Shown here: positions 891 through 48,700 of the stretch, one piece after another
Numbering within the stretch: position 1 is the stretch's first letter
Layout of the letters: every line of letters starts with the position of its first letter
Assembly (NCBI GenBank): GCA_009760885.1
Contig: CM019713.1
Location: 11,927,774-11,991,773, forward strand
Direction of reading: 5' to 3'
Length of the DNA stretch: 64,000 nucleotides
Source of the DNA: Achatina immaculata
Lineage: Eukaryota; Mollusca; Gastropoda; Stylommatophora; Achatinidae
Translations under genes and position numbers: made by a program
Notes under the pieces: generated by a model
Told to the model about the DNA's origin: nothing
The model's input: only the letters and a program-made list of their open reading frames with translations
Database searches by the model: none

Positions 891-2987
891 AATGCCCATT
901 TTACCATTTATGCGGCAGCAGTGACAATGTAATTAACTTAAGAGGTAATCTCCTGACTGAAAGATGTAGTTTAAGAAAAAGTTATAATGCCTTCTCAAAC
1001 TAATCAGCACACACATGGCAAGCAATAAAAATCAGAGATTCACAACTCACCCATGTACAGCTAATTCCAGTAAGGAAAAAAAATCCTGCTTCTAGCAATT
1101 CCTCAAGAAGTTAAATGTTCAATACGATAATGCCAGACAAAAACGCATGGACACTGTACTATATTTGCAAAGTTTTTACACAAATCCAGACCTAAATTAT
1201 CTCTCTTAAACCTCATATCTTTGTCTACAAGATATATGTAATGATATGGATATGACAGTGATGTTTTATTGGCTAGTGATATAAACTGATCCCTATATAG
1301 CACTCACTGCTTTACATTATCTGTATTAACGACAGCCTAGAGATCATCAGTCTGATTACAGCAAGCAAATCATTACATGTCTAGTCATGCATTAAGCAAA
1401 ACTAAAGAGACTGCAGATTCAAATTAAATATATTTAACAGCACACAGGGGAACGACATCACTAAAGCATGTTTTGTATTACTGTTGCAAGAGATCAAATA
1501 AAATCATAGAGCCAACTGACTAAACTGTAAAATCATGAGTCAAGTCCAATCCACTATTCTACATCTTCAAACTGAGTCCATGGTGGTATTTCAAGAGACT
1601 CAAGTCACACATAAGTCCAGGTTGATCAATTCAGTCTGCATCTCTGCTAACATCACATAAAAATTTCATTCAGCACACAAAGTGCTTCGAGTATAGTTTT
1701 AGTAGATATTTTTCTAGTTGCAAAACGTCCTTATGTTTATATAGACTCCTCCTCAACTTTATATTGGATCTATGCTGAGCCACTTATGTAGCATAGATCT
1801 AGTAAGATTTTAATAGGTTTTATTTATTTATATTCTTTATTTTTAAAATCAGACAGTTTGGTAGGGATTTCAGTTTTTGCTTTTGAAATCTAAGCAATGT
1901 TTCAGGAAATACCATAGTAAAAATAGACTAAAGAATAATGGAATGAAACACAGAATGATGGAAGGAAAGATGGAATCGCAGTGTGGAAAATGAAGAATGA
2001 GATGGAGCTAAATAGTAAGGTAAAAATAAAAATAAAAAAACATAACCATAGCAAAACAAAGAAAACAAAGAAAAGAAAGAATACTTAAAGAATGATGAAA
2101 AAAATGGGAGACAAAAACAGTTACCAGTACATTAAATGTTAACAGAGGAAGAGGAATGTGGTGTTGTTAAAAACAGTAATGAAGTAAAATAATAATAAAT
2201 TAATATACTGGATCATAAAATGAATAATACAAGAAATATGAAATCTCTGACAGTGGGAAAGAAAAATGACATAAGAAAAATATTTTTTAAATGAAACAAT
2301 AAAAAATTGTCAAAAACATGTACCTATTTTTTTTCTCAAGCATAACTCGTATCTGAAAATAAAAAAACTCTCACTTCATCAGTCTATAGAAGCAAACAAA
2401 AGACAAATGTGATTTAAAAAAAAAAAAAAAGTTTCATGATTAAGTTAGTCCAACAGCAAGCTCTAAATTAAAATACAAAGAAGATACACTAGAAAAGGCT
2501 GTAAATATTTGTTAGTCATCCTTTTCTGTTATTTATTTACTTTACTTTTCAGCAGCCCCAGCCACAAGTGAGAAAAGAAAATAAAACTTGATACAAAACT
2601 GAAAATATGGTACAGGATGGACCGATCAAATGGTGAATAAGATGCATAAAGCCTAGGTGTAACAGAAAGACAGAGAGGGTAGCAAAGATAAAAAAAAACA
2701 ACAACAACAAAAAACCCCTTAGATTCATTAATTACGCAGAAAAGTGTGCTCTCATTTAACCACTTGTTACCAAAAAAAAAAAAAAGCACTTACAAAAAAA
2801 AAAAACCAAACAAAAACAGCAGATGAATTCCAGTTTAACACAACTATCAAAGCAAAACTTTTCTTATCCAATATCAGGTGGGCTTCAACTTAGCACCAAG
2901 TGTCAGAGCAAAACACTTTTCTCATCCAGTGTCAGACCAGCATCAAGTGAGCAGCAAATGTCACAGCAAAACATTTTTCCTAAGCAA
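891..2987. other. Non-coding AT-rich stretch
   Basis: Poly-A tracts and short ORFs only. I see no splice-bounded exon and no recognisable transposon protein. Near 2835-2985 there are diverged forerunners of the 48-bp repeat that follows. Confidence 0.5.
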
Positions 2988-3254
2988 TATGAGGTGAGCT
3001 CCCATTTAACAACAAGCGTCAAGTTTTCATGTCTATATGAGGTGAGCTCCCATTTAACAACAAGCGTCAAGTTTTCATGTCTATATGAGGTGAGCTCCCA
3101 TTTAACAACAAGCGTCAAGTTTTCATGTCTATATGAGGTGAGCTCCCATTTAACAACAAGCGTCAAGTTTTCATGTCTATATGAGGTGAGCTCCCATTTA
3201 ACAACAAGCATCAAGTTTTCATGTCTATATGAGGTGAGCTCCAATTTAGCCACT
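2988..3254. repeat. 48-bp minisatellite, five full units plus a partial
   Basis: Units start at 2988, 3036, 3084, 3132 and 3180, with a partial unit at 3228. Each begins TATGAGGTGAGCTCC and they are nearly identical. Because 48 is divisible by three, the array stays open in frame on both strands (16-residue repeats such as YEVSSHLTTS); this follows from the period and is not evidence of a gene. Confidence 0.9.
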
Positions 3255-4892: not shown

Positions 4893-6660
4893 CTTATATC
4901 TTATATCCTTCCTGTGCCATTAAATGTCACATAGGACTCGCTAGGTAGTTCATCAATTTGTCTTGTTTTCGGTGAGTTTTTCAACCTCATCAAGGGATTT
5001 TATGCTCACTAAACTGGCCTCTCTAAACAATGTCCTCTTTAGAGTTTCCTGTGGTTGGTCTCTTTTTCTTCAGCCTGTTGTGTTCCACTTGATAAGTGGA
5101 TCTGGGGATTCTCTGATTGTTTCTTCTCATCACGTGACCAACATATGTCCATTTCCTTTTCCTGATTACACATGAGACAGGTTGTTGTCCACTCATTTGT
5201 CTTATTCTGCATTGTTCTTGAATTCATTCCACTTGATGCCAAGTATTTTCCTTAGGCATTTGTTTTCAAAAGAGTTTAACTTATTGTCTATTTATTTAGT
5301 TGTTTTCCAGCTGTCGCATGCATAAATGAGGGGGGAATATTACATTTGAATTGAATAAGATTGGTTTTTGTGCTTATAACTTTTGAATGCCATATGTTCT
5401 TGAGATTCTTGAAGATCGATGCTGCTTTTGCAATTCTAATTTCCTTTCTGGTGTCACCATCCTGGTCTATGTAGCTGCCAAGGTATGCAAATTGATTTGA
5501 CTTCTTCAAGAGCTGTCCCTTCTACATCTATTTTTTTATTTTGATTAATGGGAAGTTTCATTATTTTTGGGTGTCTGAGTGGCGAAGTGGTTAGTGCACT
5601 GGTCTCTCATGGCGAAGGTCGGGGGTTCAAATCCGGCCGGCGGCACCCCAGTCACCCAGCTGTAGAAATGGGTACCCGACTTCTTCTGGAGTTGGGGAAG
5701 GAAAAGGCAGCCAGGCGTGATACTGACCATATCACCCTCTAGTGTGCTGATAGGTCAAAGAAAATATGGGCACTAACACCATATCCCTATGTGCCTCTAA
5801 GGCATGACAGGGTTACCTTTACTTTCATTATTTTTGTTTTGTCCTTGTAAAGTCCTATTTTGCTAGCCAGTGATGACAGGATATCTGTTTTTTCTTGCAT
5901 GGAATTCATGTTGTTACTGATAAGAGTTATGTCATCAGCAAAATCAAGATCTTCTAGTTGGGTCCCATGTACTCAATAAATACCTGTGTTACCTGTGCAG
6001 CATTTTTTCAATATGAAGTCTATTGCAATTCCAAAAAGCAAAGGAGATAATAAACATCCTTGTTTCATGCCTGTTTCAATCTGGAACCATTCGCTCATCC
6101 CTTCTTCTATTTTGAGTGTACAAACATATCTGTTGTAGAGGTCCTTAATGATGCTGACAATTTCAGATGGTATTCTATACAGACTTAAAATACTCCATAA
6201 TGAATCTCTCATTGTATATTATCAAATGCCTTTTTTGAAGTCTATGAAGTTCAGTATTAGTGGTTTCTGCTTTTTAATATATTCTTCAAGTAATCTTAAA
6301 GATCTGGTCGAGACAGCTTCTCCCTTTTCAAAATCCTGCTTGTTCTTCTCTCACTGTGGTATCCACTATATCTTTAAGTCTATTCAAAATGACTTTGCAA
6401 AATACTTTTGACACAACTGATACTAAAGTTACTACTCTCCAACTGTTGCAGTCACTAAGGTTGCCTTTTTTTTTGGCATTTTAGCACTGATTCCTTTTTT
6501 CCATTTAGAAGGGACCTTTTCTTCTTTCCAAATCTTATTAAATATTCTCTGTAGTTGTCTTATGTTGTCACTACTGATAGCTTTTAACATTTTAGGCATC
6601 ATTTTATGATGAGATGAAATGACATTTAGATGATTAAGTCCATTCATCTGCATCAAGTAA
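4893..6660 (-). mobile_element. RTE-1 LINE copy, truncated, with RT and C-terminal parts
   Basis: Minus-strand reading gives RT-domain pieces (ETGMKQGCLLSPLLFGIA near 6040-6110) followed by the C-terminal YLGSYIDQDGDTRKE region near 5430-5490. The 3' end at 4893-4910 carries the family's ATAAG-type short tail. Stops and frameshifts are present and the 5' half is missing. A SINE-A copy (5570-5822) has inserted into it, which gives a relative age: the LINE came first. Confidence 0.8.
5570..5822 (+). mobile_element. tRNA-derived SINE (family SINE-A), full copy with TSD
   Basis: A 253-bp insertion flanked by a perfect 14-bp target-site duplication, TTTCATTATTTTTG, at 5556-5569 and 5823-5836. The head has a canonical RNA polymerase III box A (TGGCGAAGTGG, 5580-5590) and box B (GGTTCAAATCC, 5624-5634), spaced as in a tRNA. 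The body runs on to CATGACAGGGTTACC. It sits inside the RTE-1 copy at 4893-6660. A true tRNA gene is excluded by the long body, the TSDs and the related copies at 34703-34853 and 28985-29165. Confidence 0.9.
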
Positions 6661-8410: not shown

Positions 8411-8979
8411 TATATAGCAAAATAGGATTTGAAATTAACAAGGACAAAACAAAAATAATGAAAATTCCCCTTAATAAAAATGGAAAAATACACATAGAAG
8501 GGACAGATATTGAAGAAGTCAATCAATTTGCATACCTTGGCAGCTATATAGACCAGGATGGTGACACTAGAAAGGAAGTTAGGATCAGAATTGCAAAAGC
8601 AGCATCAATCTTCAAGAATCTTGAGAACATATGGAATTCAAAAGTTATAAGCACAAAAACCAAGTTAAGACTATTCAAATGTAATATCCACACTCATTTA
8701 TGCATGTGAAAGCTGGAAAACAACTAAAGAAATAGAAAAGAAATTAGACTCTTTTGAAAACAAATACATAAGGAAAATACTCTGCATCAAGTGGAATGAA
8801 TTCAAGAACAATGCAGAGATAAGACAGATGACTGAACAACAACCAGTCTCATGGGTGATCAGGAAAAGGAGATGGACATATGTTGGTCACTTGATGAGAA
8901 GAAATGATCAGAGAATCCCAAAACAAGCTATCAAGTGGAACACAACAGGCCAAAGAAAAAGGGGCAGACAGCGTGAAAC
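8411..8979 (+). mobile_element. RTE-1 LINE fragment, left part, interrupted by an insertion
   Basis: The C-terminal region of the RTE-1 protein, including EEVNQFAYLGSYIDQD and later KWNTTGQRKRGRQ, is readable with a few frame breaks. The copy stops abruptly at 8979 and resumes at 10410; a 1.43-kb element sits between. GCGTGAAAC is present on both sides as the TSD of that insertion. Confidence 0.85.
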
Positions 8980-9194
8980 CATCTTCTTCTTCTTCGTTCG
9001 CTTCTACCACCAAGACCGCACTGTGATCCTACTGAATTTTCGCCTGTGGTTCTCGTTAGGTCCCGTGGTCTCGAGATCCCCAGGAGGACCACAAGAGGTT
9101 CAGAGTATCGCAGGGCTTTAGCCTGTATTCTTGGTGGGTCTCTGAAGCGGAATTGCGTGACACCATGGTTTTCGTTGTACCAGTTTAGTCTAGA

Positions 9195-9370
9195 GTTGGA
9201 CTTTCTCACCGGAAGACCTCGACGTGTTTAGGATATCAGTGCATCCCCGCTGGGTGAGAGGTGGTAGCCCACCCAGGCCAAAGCTGGACCTTCTCACCGG
9301 AAAACCTCGACGTGTTTTGAGATAACTGTGTACCACCGCCGGGTGAGAAGTGGTTGCCCATCTAAACTGC
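9195..9370. repeat. Unit-A tandem repeat of the VNTR element (2 copies)
   Basis: Two consecutive ~88-bp units, each with TGGACYTTCTCACCGG near the start and GGGTGAGA near the end. Copy 2 of the element has three units (starts 29441, 29529, 29618) and copy 3 has one (about 60190-60275), so unit number varies among copies. Confidence 0.85.
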
Positions 9371-9484
9371 CCTGGTCCAGTGTCTCCGACTTCAGCATTT
9401 TGCGGTCGTGGCCGCTACCCTTCCTAGTTGTGACCAGGATGGAACTTTTGTCCAGGAGGACGAATCCTCGCCATTAGTGACTTC

Positions 9485-9807
9485 CACCCCTGGGTTGAGC
9501 CAGTTTAGGCATATTATCCCAGTATAAGCGAGTTTGGGATGTGACCGACCTCTAGAGCAGAGGTACTGTGACATGCACAGCCTTCAAGATTCACCCCTGG
9601 TGTGAGCCGGTTTAGGCATAATTCACCAGTATGGGTGTATTATCAGGCGTGACCGACCTCTAGAGCGGAGGTGGCATGACATGTGAAGCCATCAAGTTCC
9701 ACCCCTGGTGTGTGCCGGTTTAGCCATATTTCACCAGTGTAGGTGTATTTCAGACGTGGCCGGCCTCTAGAGCAGAGGTGCTGTGATATGTGTAGCTCTC
9801 GTAGCGA
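9485..9807. repeat. Unit-B tandem repeat of the VNTR element (3 copies)
   Basis: Three ~107-bp units beginning CACCCCTGG at 9485, 9592 and 9700, each containing CGRCCTCTAGAGC. The equivalent units in copy 2 start at 29819, 29926 and 30033. A further degenerate unit follows to about 10060. Confidence 0.85.
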
Positions 9808-10409
9808 TACTACTGGACATACCAATTAAATTTCACTTTATCCATTCCACCACCTTTTCACATCAGCACCGGACAGCAACCTTTATTTCTTTTTCTGCAT
9901 TTTCTTCCTCGACCGGGAGGAGCTTCACTCCATGCGCGGCAGTCAAAGAGTCTCGCCAGCAGTGTCTTAATCTCTGGGATAAGCCGGTTCATGCATTTCA
10001 GCCGATATGACTGCACTCAGGACGTGGCTGACCTCCAGACCAGAGGTGCCGTGATTTGACTGTTTGCTTCGCTTTATCCTTTCTACCACCTTTTCCGCAG
10101 TGGTGCTGCGTGGCAACCCCATTTGTACCTTTCTTCATTGGCCGGGAGGAGCACCGCTCCACACACGGCAGCTGAAGAATCTCGCCAGCAGCAGTAGATG
10201 AGCTACCAAACATGTCACTCATCTACCCTAAGTATCTGGTTTTAAAGCACCAGATATTCGCCATCGCCCCTTCTCCTGTCAGTTTAAACAGTTCTGCCAC
10301 GGGAAGGCCAGAAGCTGGACTTGACTGCCAGAGGCTGTTTGAGACACACACCGTTGGAGTGGAGATTGAATTCTCCACCCCACCTCCGGCAATAACAGTC
10401 CTTAGAACC

Positions 10410-10580
10410 GCGTGAAACTATGAAGAGGACATTGTTAAGAGAGGCCAAATTAACAGGCATAAAATCCTTTGATGAGGTTGAAAGACTCGCCAAAGACAGG
10501 AAAAATTGGCGAACTACTTTGCGAGCCCTATGTGATGTTTAATGGCACGGGAAGGATATAAGATAAGATATAAGAAACAC
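10410..10580 (+). mobile_element. RTE-1 LINE fragment, right part with 3' tail
   Basis: Continuation of the LINE interrupted at 8979. It reads on through GAGGACATTGTTAAGAGAGG to TGATGTTTAATGGCACGGG and ends with an ATAAGATATAAG-type short repeat, the 3' tail shared by the RTE-1 copies. Confidence 0.85.
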
Positions 10581-13870: not shown

Positions 13871-14191
13871 AATAACACCAGCTCACATTAACAGAGTGAT
13901 AGCACAAGACAAGATACTGTATTTTTCTACCATTATATTTCTCGACTGCCTCTTTTCAAGTGGGTATATTCAGTTTTTAAATTCAATTCTCACATACAAA
14001 AAAATCAACATTTCAAATTAAAATAACTACTGGAGAAGGAAACAAAATAAAAAGAGTTACGGTAAGCAGAGATGTTAGAAAAAAAATGCAAAATGATAAA
14101 AAGGACACAGAGAAAGAAATATCACAAGCAGGACACAAAAAAAAAATGAAGAGACTTCTTCTTCTTCTTCTTCTTCGTTCGCACTGTCTGT

Positions 14192-15049
14192 CTATATCTG
14201 CAGTCCTGTCTCTTGGATAAATTTCACTGTTTTTTGTAATTCATGTATGGAACCATAGAGCTTATCTTCTTTAGTGGTTTCACTGGGCCAGTAATTATTT
14301 CTCAGTGACTCGTAGTTGATGCAGTTCTGGAGGATATGTTCCACAGTTTGGGGCACCTGGGCACATGTACACAGATTAGTAGTACCAACCTTAAACTTTG
14401 TATACATGTGACTTCGGAGTCGGCTGTGTCCTGTTCGGAGACGGAAGATGGTGACTTGTTCCTTTCTGTTTAGCATGTGATAGTCATCATGTGGTGGTGT
14501 TTGTGGCTTCCTGTAGGTTTTTATCATGCTTTTCTTCTGATTATAAGTGATTGGTATGTCTGGTTGCTCCATTTCAGTGCCCTCTTTGGCCAGTTGGTCA
14601 GCTTTCTCATTGCCTGGTATCCCACAGTGGGAGGGAATCCATTGCAAAGTGACTCCATGTTGTAAGCCAATTTTTGACAAGGCATCCTTAAGGTCTGGTA
14701 GTTTGTTGCACTGAAGAGCCTCCAGTACTGATCTTGCATCTGTGAGAATTACTACAGGACATGTATCAATTCTGGAGTCTGATAGTTTTTCAACTGCAGC
14801 AATAATTGCCCTAACTTCTGCATCAAAGTTGTTGCAGTATTTACCAGTGGGTATGGAAATCTTGTCAATGGTGTTGTTTGGATATTCAATATATGCTCCT
14901 GCCCCTCCATTCTTTATGGCATTATGTGCAGATCCATCTGTATACACACGTATCCAGGTGTCACATGGATATTTGTCATCTAGAACACTAAGTGTGGCTG
15001 TTGATCTTACAAGACTACTCTGCATCTCACCATTCTGCACACCTTTCAC
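14192..15049 (-). pseudogene. LINE RNase H domain
   Basis: 285 residues counted from a GTG codon, with the frame open further upstream. The RNase H1-type catalytic set is visible in order: VYTDGSA (Asp), FDAEVRA (Glu), ILTDARS (Asp) and GNEKADQLA (Asp), with the WIPSHCGIPGN motif just before the last. A Cys-rich stretch follows (TNLCTCAQVPQTVEHILQNC), common at the C-terminus of such LINEs. The domain would remove RNA from the RNA-DNA hybrid during target-primed reverse transcription. It is out of frame with the RT by one base near 15135, so here it is a broken part of ORF2 with the domain itself intact. Confidence 0.9.
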
Positions 15050-15126
15050 TTCAGTCTGAATAGATATTTGTGTATAATCTGCTTCTTTCCATGGTGTATG
15101 CTCTGGTACAGATGATAATGGAGTGA

Positions 15127-17097
15127 CTACAGTGGAAGGTCAGGTATCAGCTTACGCATACGCTTGGCCTGATGAATGAAGCTGCTTCTTTTAAGCCGTC
15201 CTAATGCCAAGTTATTGAATCTCTCCTTCAGGGGATGGCTTACAGAGCTAAGGAATTTTTCTCCCATGGTCATGACCTTTGTGTCTCTACGTTCCTTTAG
15301 CGGTTGAACACCAACTATTTTCTGCATTTCTACTATTGGTGTGGACCTCATGGCACCTGTGATAATCCGTAGTGACTGATTTTGAACCTTGTCTAGATTA
15401 TGCAGCGTAGTGTTTGATGCTGTGCACCAAGATGTTGAGCCATATTCTAAATGTGGTAGAATACTTTGCTGATATACATTCTTGAGGATTCTTTCACTAG
15501 CTCCCCATGTGGTTCCACTCAATTTTCTTAACATGGCTAGTTTTCTTCTGGCTTTTGCTTCTGCACTGTTGATGTGTTGCTTCCACGTCAGTTTTGAGTC
15601 AAGAGTCACTCCTAAGTAAGTGGATTGGTTGTCCATCCTTAAGGGTATTTCATTTACAAAGATCTTACCTGCTTTCTGTTTAGATGAGAGGGTGAACAGA
15701 GTGGTACTTGATTTCTCTGTGTTGATACTTACACACCATTTGTTTGTCCATGATGTCAAGATGTCTGCTGCTCTTTGGAGTCTCTGTGTAGCAACTGTCG
15801 CATATTCATCTGTACACCACATGACCAGATCATCTGCATACAGTGCCGCTTTGATTCCATAGGGAAGTTCCTTGACCAGGTCATTAATGAATACAAGGAA
15901 TAATGTAGGCGAAAGGACTCCTCCTTGTGGTACACCGTGTCGCAGAAGTACCTTCTGGCTGTTGTGTCCATCCATTACTACTCTAGCTCTTCTATTGTGT
16001 AAATAGGACTTTATCCAGTTGTACAGTCTTCCATTCACATTGCAGTTTCTTAGTTTCCACAGCAGACCTTTTTTCCATACTTTATCAAAGGCTTTCTTCA
16101 GGTCTATCCACGCTGCTAGTACAAGGTTTTTCTCTTGGAATGCATCCTCAATCTCTTGAGAGAGATAGATCACTTGATCTTCCGTACTGTAGTACTGCCT
16201 AAATCCTGCTTGTTGTGGAACGAGAAGGTTTTCACTTTCTAGGTACCATTTTAGCCTCAGGTCAATGATGCGTTCCATCGTTTTGCATAGGCAGCTAGTG
16301 AGACTGATTGGCCTGTAGCTGGAGGCAGTATCACTGTTTTTCCCTGGTTTTAGCAGTGGTACCATGCTTGCTTCCTTCCAGATTTGAGGTAACTTACCTG
16401 TGCTCCAGCACATATTGAAAATATCCAACAGCTTTCCCAATGCTGCCATTCCCAGGTTCTTGATCATTTCATTGGACACTCCATCTGGTCCTGGTGATTT
16501 CCTTGGTTTCAGTTTACTAACTGCTAGGTCTAACTCGCTGCGTGTGATTGGTGCATTCATGACCTCCACTTTTCTGACTTGTTCCTCCTCTTTCTGTGGC
16601 TGGATGCGCACTGTACGCTCCTTCTCTGGATGGATATCAATGTTGCAGTCCTGTGCAAACATGCGAGCAAAGTGATCTGCTACCTGCTTACCTGTAAGAG
16701 TTTTCCCATCCTCTATTAGTGTAACCTTTGTACTTCTTCCAGTACTCTCATCATTTAACTGTTTGATTAGTTTCCACAGTTTCCTTCCATCCTTTTCAAA
16801 GTTTAGGGACTCTGTTTTCTCTCTCCAACTTTCCCGTCTGGCTTGCAGCTTTGCTCTCTGAAATTTGGCCTTAGAATGTTGGTAATTATTGTGGTGTTCT
16901 TGGCATGGTCTATTTTCTGCTTGCTTTCGAGCTGCTTCCACGTCATCATGGAGTTTTCCCAGCTCACTAGACCAGTATGGTTTATAGTCCCTGCGAGCTC
17001 CTCTGGGAATGGTTTCATGAGCGGCCTGAAGGATACAAGCATTGAATTCCTTCACTATGCTGTTAATATCCTTACCTTCTATGGACAGCTGTCCCAC
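15127..17097 (-). pseudogene. LINE reverse transcriptase domain
   Basis: 656 residues of continuous RT frame. RT motifs occur in order: KLKPRKSPGPDGVSNE, YRPISLTSCLCKTMERI, QAGFRQ, AAWIDLKKAFDKVW, HGVPQGGVLSPTLF and the active site YADDLVMW near residue 419 (about 15830-15841). The N-terminal part (HETIPRGARRDYKPYW) is the usual linker from the endonuclease. The frame ends with a premature TAG after LIPDLPL, while the coding text continues into RNase H one base out of frame. Function: reverse transcription of the element RNA at the nicked target. Confidence 0.93.
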
Positions 17098-18041
17098 CAG
17101 GTACCTGTACGATGTCTGTACATTGTCCAGTTTGCTTTTTTATAGTTCCATCTGGGGAGAGGGTTACTGGTGTTAAGGAGTTCATTTTCTATTGTCAGGA
17201 GGACTGGTCGATGGTCGCTACCTCCAAGTTGTTTTCCAACTTCACGTGTAATGTTCCACTTCAGATCTGGAGAGTGGAATGCCAGATCTGGTGTTGATTT
17301 TGTATGCCATGCCCTTGAGTAAAATGTTGGGGCATCCATTGGCTGGTTGATCAGGAGAAGTCCATTATCATCCTGCCAGCTCTCAACTTCCTCTCCTTTC
17401 TTGTCTATGTGGTCATAGCCCAAGCTCTGGGAATGACTGTTAAAATCACCACAGACCATCAGTCTCTCTTTGTGTGGGATTGTTCCTAAAGCAAGTGGGC
17501 GGTCATTAGGACAGTAATAGTTAAGGAGATGGAAATCTGTATTACTACTTTTTAGATGGATCATCTGGTATTCGGCTCCTTCCATGTACACTCCCACCTG
17601 ACATGCGCTGATGTTATTCTTAACAAGTGTGAGTACTCCTCCTTTTCTTCTGTCCTGTCGGTCTGATCTAAAGCACTGGTAGCCTCTGATTTTAAAGGCG
17701 GCATCTTTGGTTAGGTGTGTCTCCTGTATGCAGCATATACTTACCTGCTCTGCAAAAAGTATGTTCTCTAGTTCAACCTTTTTGCTATAGCCATCTCTAA
17801 CACTGCTGACACCCTCAGCATTCCACTGCATTATTTTAAGTTCTTGCTTTTTGGCTATTTTCTTCTGTTGTATTTTTTGGCCAGTAGCTCTACTCTCATG
17901 TCTCCTGACTCCACAAGACGAACTGAGAGGACCTCCAGTAGCATTGGGTGGACCCTTTCGAGGCAGGGGGCCCGGCACTGCACCTGCCTGGTTAGTCTTC
18001 ACAGGGCGAGCACCATGTTTGAAAACTGCAGATAGAGACAT
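17079..18041 (-). pseudogene. LINE apurinic-type endonuclease domain
   Basis: 320 residues from ATG; the frame is open further upstream to the TGA at 18108-18110. EEP-family motifs: MQWNAEG (Asn), CIQETHL (Glu), VCGDFNSHS (Asp/Asn) and GGSDHRPV (Ser-Asp-His). This domain nicks target DNA to prime reverse transcription. The last residues (after NWTMYR) are read out of frame; the true text continues as the RT linker after a one-base shift near 17110-17125. A basic, Gly/Pro-rich N-terminus precedes the domain. Confidence 0.9.
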
Positions 18042-18107
18042 TTCATTAGCGATAATGCGTGTTACCCTGATTTTTGCGATGCGCCTTTTGGCTGGGTAAC
18101 TCCGACT

Positions 18108-18416
18108 TCAGCACCTTTCCTTGCTAGGGCAGACTGTGGTCTTGCTCGGACTGCCATGAAGACAGTGTGGCTGGCCTGCCCAAAACTTTGTTTTCCAGCC
18201 CCTGGTGGCTGTACTTAAGCACCTTCTCCATGTCAGATGGTTTGAGACAGTTCCACAAAGACACTCTGACTTTGAGATGAGGAATCTGATGAGTGCTTCA
18301 ACGATATCCATTCCCCGCCACCCATAGTCTACTGGCTCTGTTTTGTTTACATCATTCTGATAGCCATTGTTGTAAAGACCCATAGGCTTGTCACGTCCTG
18401 GATTCATTGGTTTCAC
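18108..18416 (-). pseudogene. LINE ORF1 remnant or 5' coding region
   Basis: 102 residues ending in TGA, in the same frame as the endonuclease that follows. No clear zinc knuckle or coiled coil is visible. By position it is the tail of an ORF1 or the N-terminus of ORF2 cut by a stop. With only ~530 bp between the TSD and the endonuclease ORF, a full ORF1 is absent, so the copy is probably 5'-truncated. Confidence 0.5.
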
Positions 18417-18649
18417 ATCAGACTTCCCTCATCCCCGCCAGAGATCTCCATGTCCCCATCTGTCCACCAACCTGACATTACATTTTGCAAAAATAACAAT
18501 TACAATTAGTGTTGATTGCTACAAGTTTCTGGGCTACAGAGGTAGGTCAGAGTTTTTAAGCAAACAGATCTATGTTCCCTGTCTCACAAACACTGTGTTA
18601 AGATAAGTGTGTTCTTAACACAGTTGTTCCCAGGGGAAAATGAAGAGAC

Positions 18650-19946: not shown

Positions 19947-20631
19947 TGAAGTTAACAAGGAAAAAACAAAAGTAATGAAACATCTCATTACTCAAGAAGG
20001 AAAAATATATGTAGAAGGAACAACTGTTGAAGAAGTAACCCATTTTGCATACCTCACCAGGATGGTGACACCAGAAAGAAAGAATTTAGAACTGCAAAAG
20101 CAGCACTGACCTTCAAGAATTTTGAGAACATATGGCATTCAAAAGTTATAAGCACAAAAACCAAGCTTATTCAATTCAAATGTAACATCCACCATCATTT
20201 ATGCACGTGAAAGCTGGAAAACAACTAAATAAATAGACAAGAAATTAGACTCTTCTGAAAACAAATGCCTCAGGAAAATACTTGGTATAAAGTGGAACAA
20301 ATTCAAGAACAATGCAAAGGTAAGACAGATGAGCAAACAACAACCTGTCTCATGGGCGATCAGAAAAAGAAGATGGACATATGTTGATCACATGATAAGA
20401 AGAAACAGTCAGAGAACCCCAAAACAAGCTATCAAGTGGAACACAACAGGCAGAAGAAAAAGCAGTCGAACACATGAAACTCTGAAGAGGACATTGTTAA
20501 GAGAGGTCAGTTTAGTGGGCATAAAATCCCTTGCTGAGGTTGAAAACCTCGCTGAAAACAGGAAAACTTGGCAAACTACCATGCGAGCCCTATGTGACAT
20601 TTAACAGCATGGGAAGGACGTAAGATGTAAG
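19947..20631 (+). mobile_element. RTE-1 LINE, 5'-truncated, with 13-bp TSD
   Basis: A 685-bp insertion flanked by a perfect TSD, ACTTTTCATATGC (19934-19946 and 20632-20644). It covers the C-terminal ~200 codons of the RTE-1 protein, with KWNTTGRRKSSRT and LREVSLVGIKSLAEVE readable, and ends in the GTAAGATGTAAG-type tail. Several frame breaks mark it as inactive. The clean edges make it a good reference for the RTE-1 3' end. Confidence 0.88.
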
Positions 20632-22341: not shown

Positions 22342-22737
22342 GTGTTAGCTGTACTAGGTAGGTGTTAGCTGGAAAATATATCTTTAGCTGTACTAGGTGT
22401 TAGCTGGAAAATATATCTTTAGCTGTACTAGGTGTTGGCTTGAAAATATATCTTTAGCTGTACTAGGTGTTGGCTTGAAAATATATCTTTAGCTGTACTA
22501 GGTGTTAGCTTGAAAATATATCTTTAGCTGTACTAGGTAGGTGTTAGCTTGAAAATATATCTTTAGCTGTACTAGGTGTTGGCTTGAAAATATATCTTTA
22601 GCTGTACTAGGTGTTGGCTTGAAAATATATCTTTAGCTGTACTAGGTGTTAGCTTGAAAATATATCTTTAGCTGTACTAGGTGTTAGCTTGAAAATATAT
22701 CTTTAGCTGTACTAGGTGTTAGCTTGAAAATATATCT
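22342..22737. repeat. 35-bp minisatellite, about 11 units
   Basis: Unit of 35 bp built on TCTTTAGCTGTACTAGGTG followed by TTAGCTTGAAAATATA. Some units carry an extra GGTA, giving 39 bp. Variants (TTAGCTGG, TTGGCTTG, TTAGCTTG) are arranged in blocks, suggesting multi-unit duplications. There are no unique spacers, so it is not a CRISPR array. Confidence 0.92.
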
Positions 22738-29165: not shown

Positions 29166-29205
29166 TTCAAGCACCACAGCAGCGTGGCTTTTCTTTTGCC
29201 GGAAC

Positions 29206-30523
29206 TTCTTCTTCTTCTTCTTCTTCGTTCGCTTCTACCACCAAAACCGCACTGTGATCCTACTGAATTTACGCCTGTGGTCCTCGTTAGGTCCCGTGGT
29301 CTCCTGTGTGGTCCCCGAAAGGACCACACGAGATCCACAAGAGGTTCAGAGTATTGCAGGGCTTTAGCCTGTATTCTTGGTGGGTCTCTGAAGCGGGATT
29401 GCGTGACACCGTGGTTTTCATTGCACCAGTTTAGTCTAGGGTTGGACTTTCTCACCGGAAGACCTCGACGTGTTTAAGATATCAGTGCATCCCCGCTGGG
29501 TGAGAGGTGGTAGCCCACCCAGGCCAGAGTTGGACCTTCTCACCGGAAAACCTCGACGTGTTTTGAGATACCCGTGTATCACCGCCGGGTGAGAGGTGGT
29601 TGCCCATCCAGTCCAGAGTTGGACTTTCTCACCGGAAAACCTCAGCGTGATTAGGATACGCAAACATCCCCGCCGGGTGAGATGTGGTTGCCTATCTAGA
29701 CTGCCCTGGTCCAGTGTCTCCGACTTCAGCATTTTGCGGTCGTGGCCGCTACCCTTCCTAGTTGTGACCAGGATGGAGCTTTTGTCCAGGAGGACGAATC
29801 CTCGCCACTAGTGACTTCCACCCCTGGGTTGAGCCGGTTTAGGCATATTATCCCAGTATAGGTGTGTTTGGGACGTGACCGACCTCTAGAGCAGAGGTAC
29901 TGTGACATGCATAGCCTTCAAGATCCACCCCTGGTGTGAGCCGGTTTAGGCAAAATTCACCAGTATGGGTGTATATCAGGCGTGACCGACCTCTAGAGCG
30001 GAGGTGGCATGACATGTCCAGCCATCAAGTTCCACCCCTGGTGTGTGCCGTTTTAAGCATATTTCACCAGTGTAGGTGTATTTCGGACGTGGCCGGCCTC
30101 TAGAGCAGAAGTGCCGTGGTATGTATAGCTCTCGTAGCGATGCTACTGGACATACCGATTAAACTTCACTTTATCCTTTCCACCACCTTTCCCATCGGCA
30201 CTGCACAGCAACCTTTATTTCTTTTCTGCATTTCTCCCTTGACCGGGAGGAGCTTCACTCCATGCGCGGCATTTGAAGAGTCTCACCAGCAGTGTCTTAA
30301 CCTCTGGGACAAGCCGGTTCATGCATTTCACCCGATATGACTGCATTCAGGACGTGGCCGACCTCCAGACCAGAGGTGCCGTGATTTGACTGTTTGCTTC
30401 GTTTTATCCTTTCTACTACCTTTTCCGCAGTGATGATGCGCGGCAACCTCATTTGCACCTTTCTTCATTGGCCGGGAGGAGCACCGCTCCACGCACGGCA
30501 ACTGAAAAAACTCGCCAACAGCA
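29206..30523 (-). mobile_element. VNTR-bearing composite retroelement, copy 2
   Basis: A 1318-bp insertion with a perfect 12-bp TSD, TTTTGCCGGAAC (29194-29205 and 30524-30535). The minus-strand 3' tail is GCGAAC-(GAA)n. It has three ~88-bp A units (29441, 29529, 29618) and three ~107-bp B units (29819, 29926, 30033). Relative to copy 1 it has one extra A unit, an extra ~18 bp around GTGGTCCCCGAAAGGACCAC (a small hairpin), and lacks about 210 bp at the 5' end. That pattern fits 5' truncation during target-primed reverse transcription. Confidence 0.85.
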
Positions 30524-30705
30524 TTTTGCCGGAACATATTCACAAGTTTCAGAAACTGGACACTTGATCTCCCTCCTCCACAATCAGAGACCATGATAAT
30601 GTTAAAGAAACTATGGAATTAATTAAAAAAAAAAAAAAAAAATATTACTGAGATCTCAACCCAGTATTTTTGCTCTGTAGACAGATTCTCTACCACTGAG
30701 CACTG

Positions 30706-31280
30706 TTACACCAAAAGATTAGCCACAGTCTTGGATGCTATTTGTATATAATATTTGTATAAAAGTGACAAAACATCATTATCATCAGTCCTCTGTAATC
30801 CCAATAAAGCATAAGGTATCAACAAATTTCCCCAGGCAATCCTGTCTTGAGCGCGTCGTGATACCTCAAACCATGTCTTTCCTGCCTCCTTTGGTTCTTC
30901 CTGAATTGTGCACCTCCATGTTTCTAATAAGCTATCAAGTGGAGCACAACAGGCCAAAAAAAAAGAGGTCGACCACGTGAAACTCTGAAGTGAACACTGT
31001 TAAGAGAAGCCAGTTTAGTGGGTATAACATCACTTGATGAAGTTGAAAGACACGCAGAGAACAGGAAAACTTGGCATACAACTATGCAAGCCCAATGTGA
31101 TGTTTAACGGCACGGGAAGGACATAAGATGTTTCTAATGGCCTGGCCCTCTTTCTTTTTCCTTGAGGTGTCCAAGTCAAGGAGGTACAGAAGTGTCTTGC
31201 TTTTTCCATTTGTAGTGTGTGACCCAGCCATTTCCATCTTCATCTTTTGACCTCTAGTAATATTCTCAATGCTTGTTCAT
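30706..31280 (-). mobile_element. RTE-4 LINE fragment, interrupted by an RTE-1 insertion
   Basis: Minus-strand C-terminus: KRKRARPLETWRC, EEPKEAGKTW and RRAQDRIAWGNLL are readable across 30706-30928, and the upstream part (WTPQGKRK side, HTLQMEKAR) at 31139-31280. A 199-bp RTE-1 piece splits it. Confidence 0.75.
30929..31127 (+). mobile_element. Short RTE-1 insertion with 11-bp TSD
   Basis: Only the last ~199 bp of RTE-1, ending with GGGAAGGACATAAG, flanked by ATGTTTCTAAT at 30918-30928 and 31128-31138. It is a severe 5' truncation nested in an RTE-4 copy. Confidence 0.88.
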
Positions 31281-42761: not shown

Positions 42762-45700
42762 GTCAGTGCCATTTTCTCTCAGTGTTATTCGTTGTGTACT
42801 AAATGAGCTCCTGAATATGATGTAGATTGTTGTTGGTGATGATAATAGTGGTGATATACTGTTGGTGGATTGTTGTTGGTGTTGATGATGATATACTGTT
42901 GGTAGATTGTTGTTGGTGATGATGATGATGATATACTATTGGTAGATTGTTGTTGGTGATAATGATGATGATGATGATATTCTATTGGTATATTGTTATT
43001 GGTGATAGCGATGATGATATACTATTGGTATATTGTTGTTGGTGATGATGATGATAATATACTATTGGTAGATTGTTGTTGGTGATGATGATGATATTCT
43101 AATGGTATATTGTTGTTGGTGATAGCGATGATGATATACTATTGGTAGATTGTTGTTGGTGATGATGATGATATATACTATTGGTAGATTGTTGTTGGTG
43201 ATGATGATGATGATGATGATGATATACTATTGGTAGATTGTTGTTGGTGATGATGATGGTGGTGGTGGTGATGATAATGGTGGTGATGATGATGATATAC
43301 TATTGGTAGATTGTTGTTGGTGATGATGATGATGATATACTTTTGGTAGATTGTTGTTGGTGATAATGATGATGATATTCTATTGGTATATTGTTGTTGG
43401 TGATAGTGATGATGATATGCTATTGGTAGATTGTTGTTGGTGATGATGATGATAATATACTATTGGTAAATTGTTGTTGGTGATGATGATGATATTCTAT
43501 TGGTATATTGTTGTTGGTGATAGCGATGATGATATACTATTGGTAGATTGTTGTTGGTGATGATGATGATAATATACTATTGGTAGATTGTTGTTGGTGA
43601 TGATGATGGTGGTGGTGGTGGTGTGATGATGATGATGATGATGATGATGATGTACTGTTTACTTTAGCTGGCAGACATCACACTTTTAATTTAAATGCAG
43701 GCAAGTTTCATCATTTGGAAATAAACTTTGTTGTTCTAAAAATGGCTTCATTACAGTCGAGACATTCCCATACCCGCTCAGAATGGGTTTGCTGGCAGCA
43801 GGGACACTCTGGGTACTGTGCTCATTTCTGTGACAGATTTTCTAGAGTTTTGCTGGACAGCAGCAATCTGACCCGCTCTTCTCGTGATTTCCAGCTGCCA
43901 AAGAATTTTTTGCACATGTGTGACAGTGCGCATGAACATTCAGTCCCACTTCCTAGAGACTGAGGGAAAATTTATTGCTGGATGATTCATGAGAAAAAGT
44001 CCCTGCCACTTCAGATAGGATTACATCCAGGGCAAACATGTAACCCTGAGACCAACAGGTTCCCCCCCCCCCCCCCATCAAAGATTAAAGATTACAGTGC
44101 TAGTTTTGGGGTTTTTTTAACCAGACTCCAGTTTTACTTCTCAACTGGCACAGGTATAGAGGTTCAGTCTTTTGTCAGTAATTCCCAGTCTGCTTGACTT
44201 GTAGAAGTCTCTCATGGATTCCTCACAAATATCCCTGTATCTCAGTCTATCTCGTAGCTTCCTTACCTAAAGAAATTATGTAGTTTTTAGTTAACACTTG
44301 TCCTTCGTCTCTTAGAAAACTGAACAACACCCACAATACACGTACATTTTTTGTTATCATTCATCACAGACACCTTACTTTGTTGGGAAATGATGTTGTG
44401 TCATTTTTTTGGGTTTTTTTTAGCATTTATCATAGTTTAAAACTATGAACTCACAGCTACGAAACAAAACCATTTAGGTGTAATTATTTGAAAAAAAATT
44501 TGGAAAGCTATTTAAACAACTTATGCTTGATAATACAAAGATTTTGCAAGAATAGGCTGCTGATTTGTGTAATGATTACATCAAGAGATTTGCCTTTTCT
44601 TTGTTCCACAGAGTCATCCAGCTGTTGTGGAAGCAGGCAAGAAAGCTATAGATTCACATGGGGCTGGGTTAAGTTCTGTGCGCTTCATCTGTGGGACACA
44701 GGTATTTATGTTTTTTAAAAATATCTAGGACTAAATATCTAGCTTTTGTGCATTTGGGTCAGAATTTTACATTCTAGCATAAAGTTAGAATTACAAAGGC
44801 AGCATTGGTCTTTAAAAAATCTTGAGAAAATATTGCAGTCAAAAGTTATAAGCATGAAAACAGAGTTAAGATTATACAACTCATATGTAATACCTACCCA
44901 TGTTTGGAAGCATGTAAAAGCTGGGAAACAACTAAAGAAATAGAAAACAGATTAAATGCAAATGAAATCAAATATCTGAGGAAAATACTCTGTATATAGT
45001 GGAATGATTTCAAGACTAACACAGTGATAAGGAAAATGAGTACACAATAACCAATTTAATCAGTGATCAGAAAAGGAGATGGACACATATCGGCCACATG
45101 ATGAGAAGAACCAGTCAGAGAATCCCAAAACAAGCTGTTAAATTGGACACAACAGGACAAAGAGAAAGAGGTCGAGCATGTGGAAACTCTTAAAGAGAAC
45201 GTTGTTGAGAGAGGCAAAATTAGTGGCCATAACCTTTGACGAGGTTGAAAAAACTCACAGAAAACAGAAAAACATGGTGAACCACAAGTCAAGCCCTATG
45301 TGATGTTTAATGGCACCGAAAGGTGTAGGATGTTCATCTCAAGGTCCACTCATTCATTGCAGCATTGAAATTACCATATGAAGAGAATGATGGTTCCTGC
45401 TCCAGATCCAGGAATGATGATCTGTAGCTGACCAAAATGAAAAAGTTCTTGTGGGGGAACGAGCATACTACAGCCTGATGAATGAAAAAGAAGGTCATTG
45501 TGGTCCTTGTCATGTTAGAGCTTAACTCTTCTCCGTGCCTCAGGAAAAAACACGGACGTTCAGTTGGAACTGGAATAAAAGTGCGGGTCTTGATCTGTAT
45601 AGGGGGTATAGTTGTAAAATGGAATAGAAAACAGTATTACCATGTACTTATTATGTTTCAAAATATAACTAAATGTATGAAGATTTCATAAATGCAGAGT

Positions 45701-48700
45701 TTTTTAGGAAAAAAGAATTAATGTGATCTTTTTAGACAGTGATTGTGCCCAGCTTACCATCGGCTAGATCTAGATCTACACAGCTTACTATCTAAGATGT
45801 CTAGATCTACTTGTCAATCTCGTATTGTGATTCTATGTTGCATTCTCACTAAATTAATGTCTGAAATAACCTCCTAACTACTTCTCCAGTCGTCTAATAT
45901 GTCTAGATCTTCTTGGGATACATTCAAGAACAGTGGTCTGGTCACATGCCATGTCCATACCCTCTATATACATCATCAAAAATTGAAAATTTTCGATGTT
46001 TCTCACTTGGCATCATTCGTAACTAAGCACTCTTTCACCATTTTGAAAAGTGTCACCAGACACGCGGACGAAATATGTACAATCTAAATGTTAAACCGTT
46101 TTTTTTTAATGAAACAAACCAGCCGTTGCTATAATGACGGTATGTAGCATGTCGGAAAACCGAAAGCGTCACTGTAGTGCCAGAAGGCACAGAAAGAGTT
46201 AAATGAGGAGCTTAGTTATTTCACTTTGTAGGGAGGACAATGTCCTGTCATCATCATCATCCTGTGTGTGTGCCTCAGGATGTGAGGAAAGACATAATGG
46301 GCTCTGACTCTGTCACTTGGCAGAAGTGGTGTAATCAAGATTCCAACAGCAGAAAGAAGTGCCAGGACAACCATTAAACACAAACCGACATGTAAACATC
46401 CATGGGATAGAAAAAAACAGACTCCCAAAGCAGGTTGTGAAGAATGGAGAGATATTTCTTCCACAAGGAGTGGATCCAGCTTCTAGAGGGCTCCTGGTTA
46501 TCCAGTTTGACGTGTGATCACGTTTGCCTAGAAGCTATTTCCTTGGCCTCAACCAAACCACCATAACCCATTCTCCTTCCAGAGTGGAGCTTATGCTTCT
46601 TCATCATCATCACAAGCACATGCTGCAGATAACAACAACATTTTGCCCAGGTCATGCGGGAATTAACGGCATTGAGAAAGTGGACAAACTAGCAAGTGTG
46701 GCTTGAATTCAGGGTACCCTGAGAATGGATAAGGAGGAGATTGCAAGAGCCACCTTAGACAATCTGCAAATGGAAGATGACATCAGATTGAATGCAAAAT
46801 GACAACAATCACATCAGGAGGATGATCAAGTTGGGGGAGGTGAGGAGAAGTGGACGTTTTTCCAAAAGAAGTGGTTTAGCATGTGTTATCCACAGGCAGC
46901 GTGTGACATGACTGGCTTCATCAGCAGACACATACTTCAGCGGGTGTTGAAACAGAAGGTGGGTCACATATGAGAATTGTCGGAGTGCGGGAATGCCAGT
47001 CTCTGATTACAGATTACAGGTGTAACCAAAAACAAGAAACATGAACCATATTTATTTACTTTACTTTATCCTTCCTCTTATACTGTAAGGTGTCAAGTGG
47101 AGATGCATTCGACGTTTTTGGGCCATATGAGTAGCTTCGATGATGTTCATGCCATAATTTGTAAGTGTTTCTGTAATATCATCTATCATCTTTTTTCAGG
47201 GGGGGGAGGGGTTTCTTCTTGATCTGTGTCCTGTAGTTCTTTTGTTGAAGCCCCTCATGGCTGATTGTCAGTGCGTCATTCTCATTAAGTGGGTAAACCA
47301 GTTAATTCTTTGTTTCTTTATGTATTGCAGGCATGATGCAGTTCCTAGCATTGTCTTATGTCTTATATTCTTGAAAGGAGATAAAACATGAACCATGCCA
47401 TTTTTTTTTTTTTCTTTCAGTTTAGTATTTTTATTTTCCTAAATTAATGCCATGCCCATGTTCAACAATTATTTTGTTATCGTTCATTTATTATTATTGT
47501 TTTGTTGTTCAACATGTTGTTGTTAAACTTTTATTGTGTTCTCAATTGGTAAAGGACCTGCACAAGGCGCTAGAAGAGAAGATTGCTAAATTTCACGGAA
47601 AAGAAGATGCAATCCTGTACATCAGCTGCTTTGATGCCAATGCTGGAATTTTTGAGGTGTTGCTCAGCCCAGATGATGCTGTGCTGTCAGATGAGCTCAA
47701 CCATGCCTCCATTATTGATGGAATTAGACTATGTAAAGCCAAGAGGCTTCGGTACAAGCATAGAGATCTTTCAGGTGGTTTTTCTGTTCTTTTTTTTTTT
47801 TTTTCCCCTATTCCTTAACCATTTAACTCTTCCCGGGCCTTTCATCGCTTAGACAACAGTTCTGGTTTCTCACGTGGTGCCTTTAATCACTCTAGTGATG
47901 TTTGATTTGTTTCATTAAAAACCTGGTGTAATGTTTAGATTGTAAACATTTGGTGCGCATGCTCTGTGACCTTTTTCAAAATGGCAGAAGAGTACTTAGT
48001 TATGAGGGAGAAAATTGAAATTTTCTGCAAGAAATTTCAATTTTTGGTGATGTAGATGGGGTTATGTATCAAGTAGATCTGATATGTCTAGATCTACTTG
48101 ATACATTCAAGAACAGTGGTCTGGTCACAGGGCATGTCCATAACCCCATCTCTCTCTCTCTGAACCTTAAGTGCCCAGGGCACATGGGGCTTCTGCAAGG
48201 GTTTTCCACAAATGCCTGTCCTTCGCCTTTTTTTCTGCTCTTGCCCAGGATGTTGAGCGATAGAGGGCTCACCTGGGCAAGAGCAGAAAAAAAGGCGAAG
48301 GACAGGCATTTGTGGAAAACCCTTGCAGAAGCCCCATGTGCCCTGGGCACTTAAGGTTCAGAGAGAGAGAGATGGGGTTATGGACATGCCCTGTGACCAG
48401 ACCACTGTTCTTGAATGTATCAAATAGAACTAGACATATTAGATGACTGGAGAAATAGTTTTATTTCAGGCATTATTTTAGCGATAATGCAACATAGAAT
48501 CGCAATATGACATCAACAGGTAGATCTACGCATCTCAGATGGTTTGTAGTGTACCTCTAGACCTATCCGATGGTAAGTTGAACACAATCATTGTCTAAAA
48601 CATCACATTACTTCTTTGTTCCTTAAAAACTCTGCATTTATGAAATCTTCATAAGTATTTAGTTATTTTGAAACATAATAAGTACACTTTTCACACGGAA

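Follow-up and report, generated by a model that had tools for sequence, protein, structure and literature searches.

The 64,000 nucleotides of Achatina immaculata DNA analysed here (the window) contain three copies of a repeat that has blocks of tandem units, a simple (GAA)n tail and no recognisable protein. The question is what kind of element this is, and what moves it. The answer that we favour, with considerable confidence, is that the copies are members of a non-coding family of non-LTR retroelements from this gastropod, and that a young LINE located in the same window, belonging to the I superfamily and probably Ingi-like, mobilises the family in trans. This answer rests on sequence, specifically on the ends of the element, its target site duplications (TSDs), the tail shared with the LINE, the unit structure, the copy counts and the lack of any open reading frame (ORF) above chance.

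The three copies named in the original prediction are present, all reading 5' to 3' on the minus strand, with (GAA)n being the 3' tail at the low-coordinate side. Copy 1 (8980-10409, 1430 bp) is a long form with a head. From its 3' end it consists of the tail (8980-9001), an A block of two units (about 9187-9362, the inner border being approximate), a linker (about 9363-9481), a B block of three units (about 9482-9790), a stretch made up of C and B0 (about 9791-10192) and the head (about 10193-10409), the borders from the linker onwards also being approximate. Copy 2 (29206-30523, 1318 bp) is multi-unit and headless, with an A block of three units at 29433-29696 and a B block at 29817-30109. 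Copy 3 (60008-60642) represents a 646-bp single-unit form, C-B-linker-A-3'. The single layout that had been proposed for all three copies is thus not what is found, and neither is a shared GC-richer end, since the head of about 217 nt is present only in copy 1 and the first unit in copies 2 and 3 is C. TRF detects the block of about 107 bp in copies 1 and 2, and a block of about 89 bp in copy 2. The predicted numbers of A units (2, 3 and 1 in copies 1, 2 and 3) were confirmed. Those of B units (3, 3 and 1) hold for the tandem block; a motif count adds a more diverged B unit upstream, inside a duplicated C-B segment of copies 1 and 2, giving totals of 4, 4 and 1 for B and 2, 2 and 1 for C, with a stricter BLAST unit count giving fewer B units in some copies.

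Copies 1 and 2 have exact TSDs, as predicted: GCGTGAAAC of 9 bp for copy 1 (8971-8979 and 10410-10418) and TTTTGCCGGAAC of 12 bp for copy 2 (29194-29205 and 30524-30535). No convincing TSD was seen for copy 3. The insertion site of copy 1 is the 3' part of another LINE, and its empty counterpart is found in a related LINE fragment at 20174-20626 on the plus strand, where the joined flanks of copy 1 align at 85% identity over 453 bp, ungapped through the junction, and the TSD is in single copy. This second LINE family, which we take to be RTE-like, has several related 3' fragments in the window (8669-8979, 20174-20626, 52604-53051, 44881-45323, 4897-5351, 67-520 and 30926-31129), one of which was the target of copy 1. 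It is worth adding that the window contains other minisatellites, with 40-bp units x 20 (42822-43608), 29-bp units x 14 (53046-53461), 35-bp units x 11 (22359-22737), and 5.5 copies of a 48-bp unit that are 99% alike, with one frame open (2987-3248). At 47426-47818, on the plus strand, an aminotransferase class I/II domain is encoded in a frame that looks like an exon, presumably resembling 2-amino-3-ketobutyrate CoA ligase.

To describe the family, the 1.65 Gb assembly was searched, and from 14,798 first-look candidates the 28 best of 40 scored loci were taken; one of these (L001) is copy 1, and with copies 2 and 3 they make up the 30 copies examined. A consensus was built from 26 copies, omitting copies 2 and 3, the headless L008, and L017, whose alignment begins two bases late. 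It is 1540 nt long with 54% GC, and the copies, which were selected for similarity to copy 1, diverge from it by 3.4-7.2%; private differences per copy amount to 1.0-2.0 per 100 bp, depending on the region. Headed copies begin with GGTTCTAAGGACTG, adjoining the TSD, and their 3' terminus is ...GTAGAAGCGAACGAAGAAG(AAG)n; some of them deviate from this by point changes. Two copies, L011 and L025, which are sisters on the tree, have in common a short 5' variant GGTTCTAAGGACTGTAAATGCG without the hairpin region, about 45 nt including a strong hairpin being exchanged for a few bases after GGTTCTAAGGACTGT.

Exact matches to the 5' 15-mer number 5,042 in the genome and those to the 3' 21-mer 9,290, compared to 0 and 0 for the reversed-pattern controls, and the family is therefore not a product of chance. 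In C1:1-18.09 Mb, an intact 3' end follows downstream, in the same orientation, for 20 of 47 element 5' ends. The spacing is 843-1503 bp in 19 of these and 3,792 bp in one, with no opposite-strand pairs. If the intactness of the two ends is independent, this ratio suggests, as a rough figure, some 20,000 element 3' ends in the genome. The pair with the 3,792-bp spacing (C1:15635075-15638866) may represent two separate copies, one copy with a nested insertion, or a longer relative. At L071 (C21:12170570-12172450), the start of another copy follows 1,615 bp on with an identical upstream flank, implying a genomic tandem duplication that included the flanks; this copy matches the consensus at 98.6% in the head and 93% as a whole.

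The ends of the copies indicate how they were inserted. End repeats of at least 9 bp, anchored at the element ends, are present in 20 of the 30 copies, and of at least 7 bp in 21, compared to 0.1% and 2.0%, respectively, for re-paired flanks. Repeats of at least 8 bp are found in 22 copies, with a mode of 12, one of these being a 19-bp repeat in L013 that is probably a flanking repeat. In ten copies the end repeat is absent or merely 4-7 bp (no repeat in four, 4-6 bp in five). The 300-bp flanks of the 30 copies have no common continuation, and the matches between them (among 435 pairs on each side, 2 upstream and 4 downstream, at various offsets) are scattered as expected from insertion into other repeats. 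TSDs of variable length, a 3' tail and a precise 3' end are the marks of target-primed reverse transcription. They bear directly on whether this could be a DNA-level element, such as a Helentron of the pearl type with a central tandem array. Helentron and pearl elements are not known to produce a TSD on insertion, and the presence of TSDs contradicts this reading, as do their variable length, the tail, which is a microsatellite of variable length, the empty site with a single TSD copy, and a 3' end common to a LINE that encodes reverse transcriptase (see below). The reading derives its appeal from oyster Helentron derivatives, which are described as containing tandem repeats (PMC7492417); we regard it as extremely improbable.

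The original prediction that the element has no protein of its own stands. The longest stop-to-stop frame of the consensus is 123 aa, compared to a mean longest frame of 130 aa in 200 shuffles, and single copies reach 153 aa, below the 95% point of the shuffles at 185. A coding element was thus rejected, there being no ORF above chance, and a protein search with a single frame of the element gave no relatives. Neither reverse transcriptase nor LTR was found in the element, again as predicted, and no tRNA head: all eight loci scanned were without a tRNA. No Rfam family reached its gathering score in the 64-kb window, and at a lax threshold copy 1 and L016 each gave merely one chance-level snoRNA match. 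The Rfam results included no 5S or 7SL/SRP-type match and no hammerhead family, the ribozyme that a Retrozyme would be expected to carry. An HDV-like ribozyme at the 5' end was considered and rejected, the first seven bases being without a partner (by eye) and Rfam giving no match. Compared to mononucleotide shuffles, the 5' and 3' regions of the consensus have more stable folds (z -4.5 and -6.4, respectively). A stem directly before the tail can be drawn in both the long and the single-unit form; folding the two jointly, with 42 sequences, gave a weak consensus structure (z -2.4), with both sides changed in one of 16 pairs.

These results also bear on whether the element is a long SINE, that is, a Pol III-transcribed head joined to a LINE tail and enlarged by internal duplications. 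SINEs with LINE-derived tails have their 3' end and tail repeat in common with a LINE and reach high copy number, and the element resembles them in its LINE-type 3' end, its high copy number and its lack of an ORF above chance. It differs from them in having no recognisable tRNA, 5S or 7SL head and no other Rfam match, and in its length of up to 1.5 kb. The 1540-nt consensus contains A-box-like words and no B-box consensus. A degenerate or novel Pol III promoter is possible, and we consider a long SINE to be quite unlikely.

The original prediction missed a probable driver of the family in the same window. At 14156-18636, on the minus strand, there is a LINE of about 4.48 kb, with a 13-bp TSD GTCTCTTCATTTT (14143-14155 and 18637-18649) and a 3' end GCGAACGAAG(AAG)n that is identical to that of the element. 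Its domains are in three overlapping frames, all on the minus strand: endonuclease (17079-18107), reverse transcriptase (15127-17139) and RNase H (14192-15139). The 3' end reads ...TAGACAGACAGTGCGAACGAAGAAG..., with the stop codon nine bases before the shared motif. Another copy, L039, has a single frame of 1283 aa with Exo_endo_phos, RVT_1 and RNase_H all above cut-offs. The proteins of the LINE are 97-99% identical to those of the window copy, and many long open frames were found among the 66 places scored in the genome search (which include the window copy itself as a 100% self-match). This level of identity, together with the many long open frames, implies that the LINE was recently active. 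The RNase H domain indicates that it belongs to the I superfamily. Within this it is probably Ingi-like, an assignment based on domains and not on a tree, and made because Ingi elements are reported to be numerous in several gastropods (PMC11203168). Like the gastropod I-superfamily and Ingi-like LINEs of that report, the probable partner LINE has endonuclease, reverse transcriptase and RNase H; the element itself encodes nothing. The best named relative of the LINE's reverse transcriptase, at 69%, is from the stylommatophoran land snail Bradybaena similaris, others being from Littorina, Batillaria and the bivalve Mytilus.

The 3' end common to element and LINE is present in 10 of 12 LINE loci fetched, the window copy included (L033 and L036 are without it), and the 5' end CCCCTGGGAACAACTGTG in 14 of 15 fetched 5' ends, L047 being the exception. 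Genome-wide there are 6,113 LINE 3' ends and 3,577 5' ends, with controls of 0. In C1:1-27.6 Mb, 14 of 54 LINE 5' ends pair with an intact 3' end, compared to one in the opposite-strand control. Ten of the 14 pairs span 4445-4475 bp, the others being 2709, 2900, 4281 and 4766 bp. A 31-bp range therefore holds 10 of the 14 LINE lengths, and no more than 3 of 19 for the element; the coefficient of variation over all pairs is equal (0.140 for the 14 LINE pairs and 0.141 for the element).

The element and the LINE have in common GCGAACGAAG (about 11 nt) and the AAG tail, and nothing longer; a blastn comparison of the two gave the tail and chance-length words alone. Within the window the 16-mer GCGAACGAAGAAGAAG, with up to two mismatches, occurs four times, at the three element tails and the LINE, where 0.01 occurrences are expected. 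Tails of the shared type that have A, G or T at the position 19 bases before them number 17,970 in the genome, compared to 2 in the control. Of 56 printed tail contexts, classed by eye and in agreement with the genome positions of the element and LINE 3' ends, 34 are element, 16 LINE and 6 other. In the six others, on C1, the sequence is unrelated as far as TGCGAACGAAGAAG, and all have the LINE-like T before GCGAAC; they are perhaps LINE insertions so severely truncated at the 5' side that about 11 nt and the tail are left. One of them starts with LINE-internal sequence and is perhaps a deletion derivative. A T-type tail (GCGTAC), seen in the short-form consensus and considered as a co-evolving variant, was dropped as it is rare genome-wide, with 94 of element type and 12 of LINE type compared to 9,290 and 6,113 for the A type.

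A shared 3' end is also what would be expected of a SIDE, a short internally deleted element like Persaeus and Zenon (PMC6740152), which keeps the two ends of an autonomous LINE and has lost what lay between them. The trypanosomatid RIME and SIDER elements are SIDE-like. The present element agrees with SIDEs in being non-autonomous, in having a LINE 3' end and in having no Pol III promoter signature or head, as described for Persaeus (PMC6740152). However, the LINE 5' end CCCCTGGGAACAACTGTG is unlike GGTTCTAAGGACTG of the element, neither the 5' end nor the body of the element comes from the LINE examined, and the element contains tandem blocks. Since it has only the 3' end in common with this LINE, and not the LINE 5' end or body, the sequence argues that it is not an internal deletion of it. 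A longer relative encoding a reverse transcriptase was sought and not found: the flanks lead into no common sequence, the LINE examined shares the last 11 nt or so plus the tail, and the one possible exception is the 3,792-bp spacing described above. We consider a SIDE origin unlikely. For the preferred reading, mobilisation in trans by the LINE of the window, the short length of the shared stretch matters in another way: only one LINE family was examined, and another LINE with an identical end could supply the machinery.

Further evidence comes from the target sites. The LINE has end repeats of 11-13 bp in all eight pairs examined, L031 being ambiguous through a local repeat, and these lengths match the element's mode of 12. 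A T two bases before the nick (-2) is found in 13 of 22 element insertions and 6 of 8 LINE insertions, where simulation gives an expectation of 0.32. A pyrimidine at -1 is found in 18 of 22 and 6 of 8, respectively, which is no more than expected, since maximal matching against the AAG tail alone gives 0.67. The next base is a purine in 21 of 22 element insertions (P 0.0005) and 7 of 8 LINE insertions (P 0.14), with an expectation of 0.63. The agreement at the nick site is therefore weak and partly built in by the method, and this, together with the less than certain cause of the length differences, slightly lowers our confidence in the trans-mobilisation model and slightly raises that in a SIDE origin.

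The length differences are best considered together with the unit structure. From 5' to 3', the long form consists of the head (1-217), C1, B0, C2, B1-B2-B3, the linker, A1-A2-A3, the 3' region and the tail. Units of the consensus are 82-88% identical for A, 80-87% for B1-B3, 69-73% for B0 against the other B units, and 72% for C. The motif count gives four B and two C units in most of the selected long copies, the exceptions being L012 and L015 (C) and L020 (B). The number of A units in these copies ranges from 2 to 4, the counts for L019, L025 and L027 disagreeing between the two unit-counting runs. When a tree is built from the remaining sequence, leaving out the A block (26 rows), A-unit number requires 9 changes compared to a shuffled mean of 9.1, and is thus not clustered on this weakly resolved tree, which has good support on 3 of 23 inner branches. 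Unit number is the likely cause of the length differences in the element, with the reservation that what was measured is length, to which deletions may contribute. The proposal that the head is more conserved than the body gave a mixed result, divergence being 4.1% in the head, 5.9% in C2 and 2.9%, below the head, in the linker.

With copy 3 as query, the matches found were 84-87% identical to it and some 640 bp long (40 scored of 9,977 candidates). The single-unit consensus of 15 loci, copy 3 included, is 646 nt long and consists of one C, one B, the linker, one A and the 3' region; this set retains L058, which is wrongly cut, and L070, which is partial. Its members are 3.9-7.8% from their own consensus. 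By eye, 8 of the 15 start with GCTGT before TGGCGAG or variants of it, and repeats of at least 8 bp are present in three (L059, L063 and L066). Copy 2 and L008 have multiplied units and no head, and they start where the single-unit form starts, with TSDs of 12 and 11 bp, which argues that the headless start is a second true 5' end and not a random truncation. As single units are the simpler state, and the single-unit copies are somewhat further from their own consensus, the simplest order suggested by these sequences is that the family would have grown from the 646-bp single-unit form through multiplication of units, with one lineage then acquiring the 217-nt 5' head. The head alone looks like an added module.

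A mechanism can be proposed on this basis. A transcript, presumably of Pol II type, would begin at GGTTCTAAGG and finish in the AAG tail, so that the element RNA would carry at its 3' end the terminus of the LINE itself, GCGAACGAAG followed by (AAG)n. We infer that target-primed reverse transcription would then take place in trans: the endonuclease of the LINE would nick the target, its reverse transcriptase would prime on the tail and copy the element RNA, and fill-in would leave the TSDs, mostly of 9-13 bp. The A, B and C units would gain and lose copies, producing the differences in length among copies.

The original prediction compared the element to the SVA and LAVA elements of apes. Functionally these are indeed the closest, in that they are likewise non-autonomous and non-coding, with TSDs, a simple 3' tail, LINE dependence (which we infer for the snail element), internal tandem repeats varying in number and stepwise change of modules, as described in PMC7353768. 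In the snail this variation runs from the single-unit form in the family of copy 3 to between two and four A units. The word composite, in the sense of separately known parts, fits less well, as only the head looks added. The TCTCCC hexamer of SVA is absent from both strands of both element consensuses, and an Alu-like or 7SL module has no Rfam match in the element. The units of the element are about 88 and 107 bp, compared to 36-49 bp in the published description of SVA and LAVA (PMC7353768). The tail is (GAA)n, where SVA has poly(A); the probable partner, which has a specific 3' end, is a LINE of the I superfamily, where that of SVA is L1; and the host is a gastropod and not a hominoid primate. 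The element thus appears to work like SVA, its dependence on a LINE being the presumed part, without any of the SVA parts tested. Judged by its sequence, it is no SINE as far as Pol III features go, its 5' end sets it apart from a SIDE of the LINE examined, and it is not a Helentron. It looks like an element that resembles the SVA of apes and arose separately.

In the account given in PMC7353768, VNTR composites are specific to hominoid primates, and the VNTR is a major determinant of their mobilisation. Among the literature matches listed, judged by titles and abstract openings, there was no VNTR-bearing non-LTR element outside primates. We put forward, tentatively and as a serious possibility, that a VNTR retrotransposon has arisen independently in a snail; that one genome preserves both the LINE that moves it and each step by which it was assembled (single-unit core, multiplication of units, addition of the 5' head); that the partner needs only about 11 terminal nucleotides and the AAG tail; and that multiplied repeats have been favoured twice, independently, because they help mobilisation in trans. 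If true, a separate origin involving a different LINE clade would make it possible to test whether tandem units as such promote trans-mobilisation. The shared 3' end of about 11 nt, nine bases after the LINE stop codon, would provide a compact test of template recognition by an I-superfamily reverse transcriptase.
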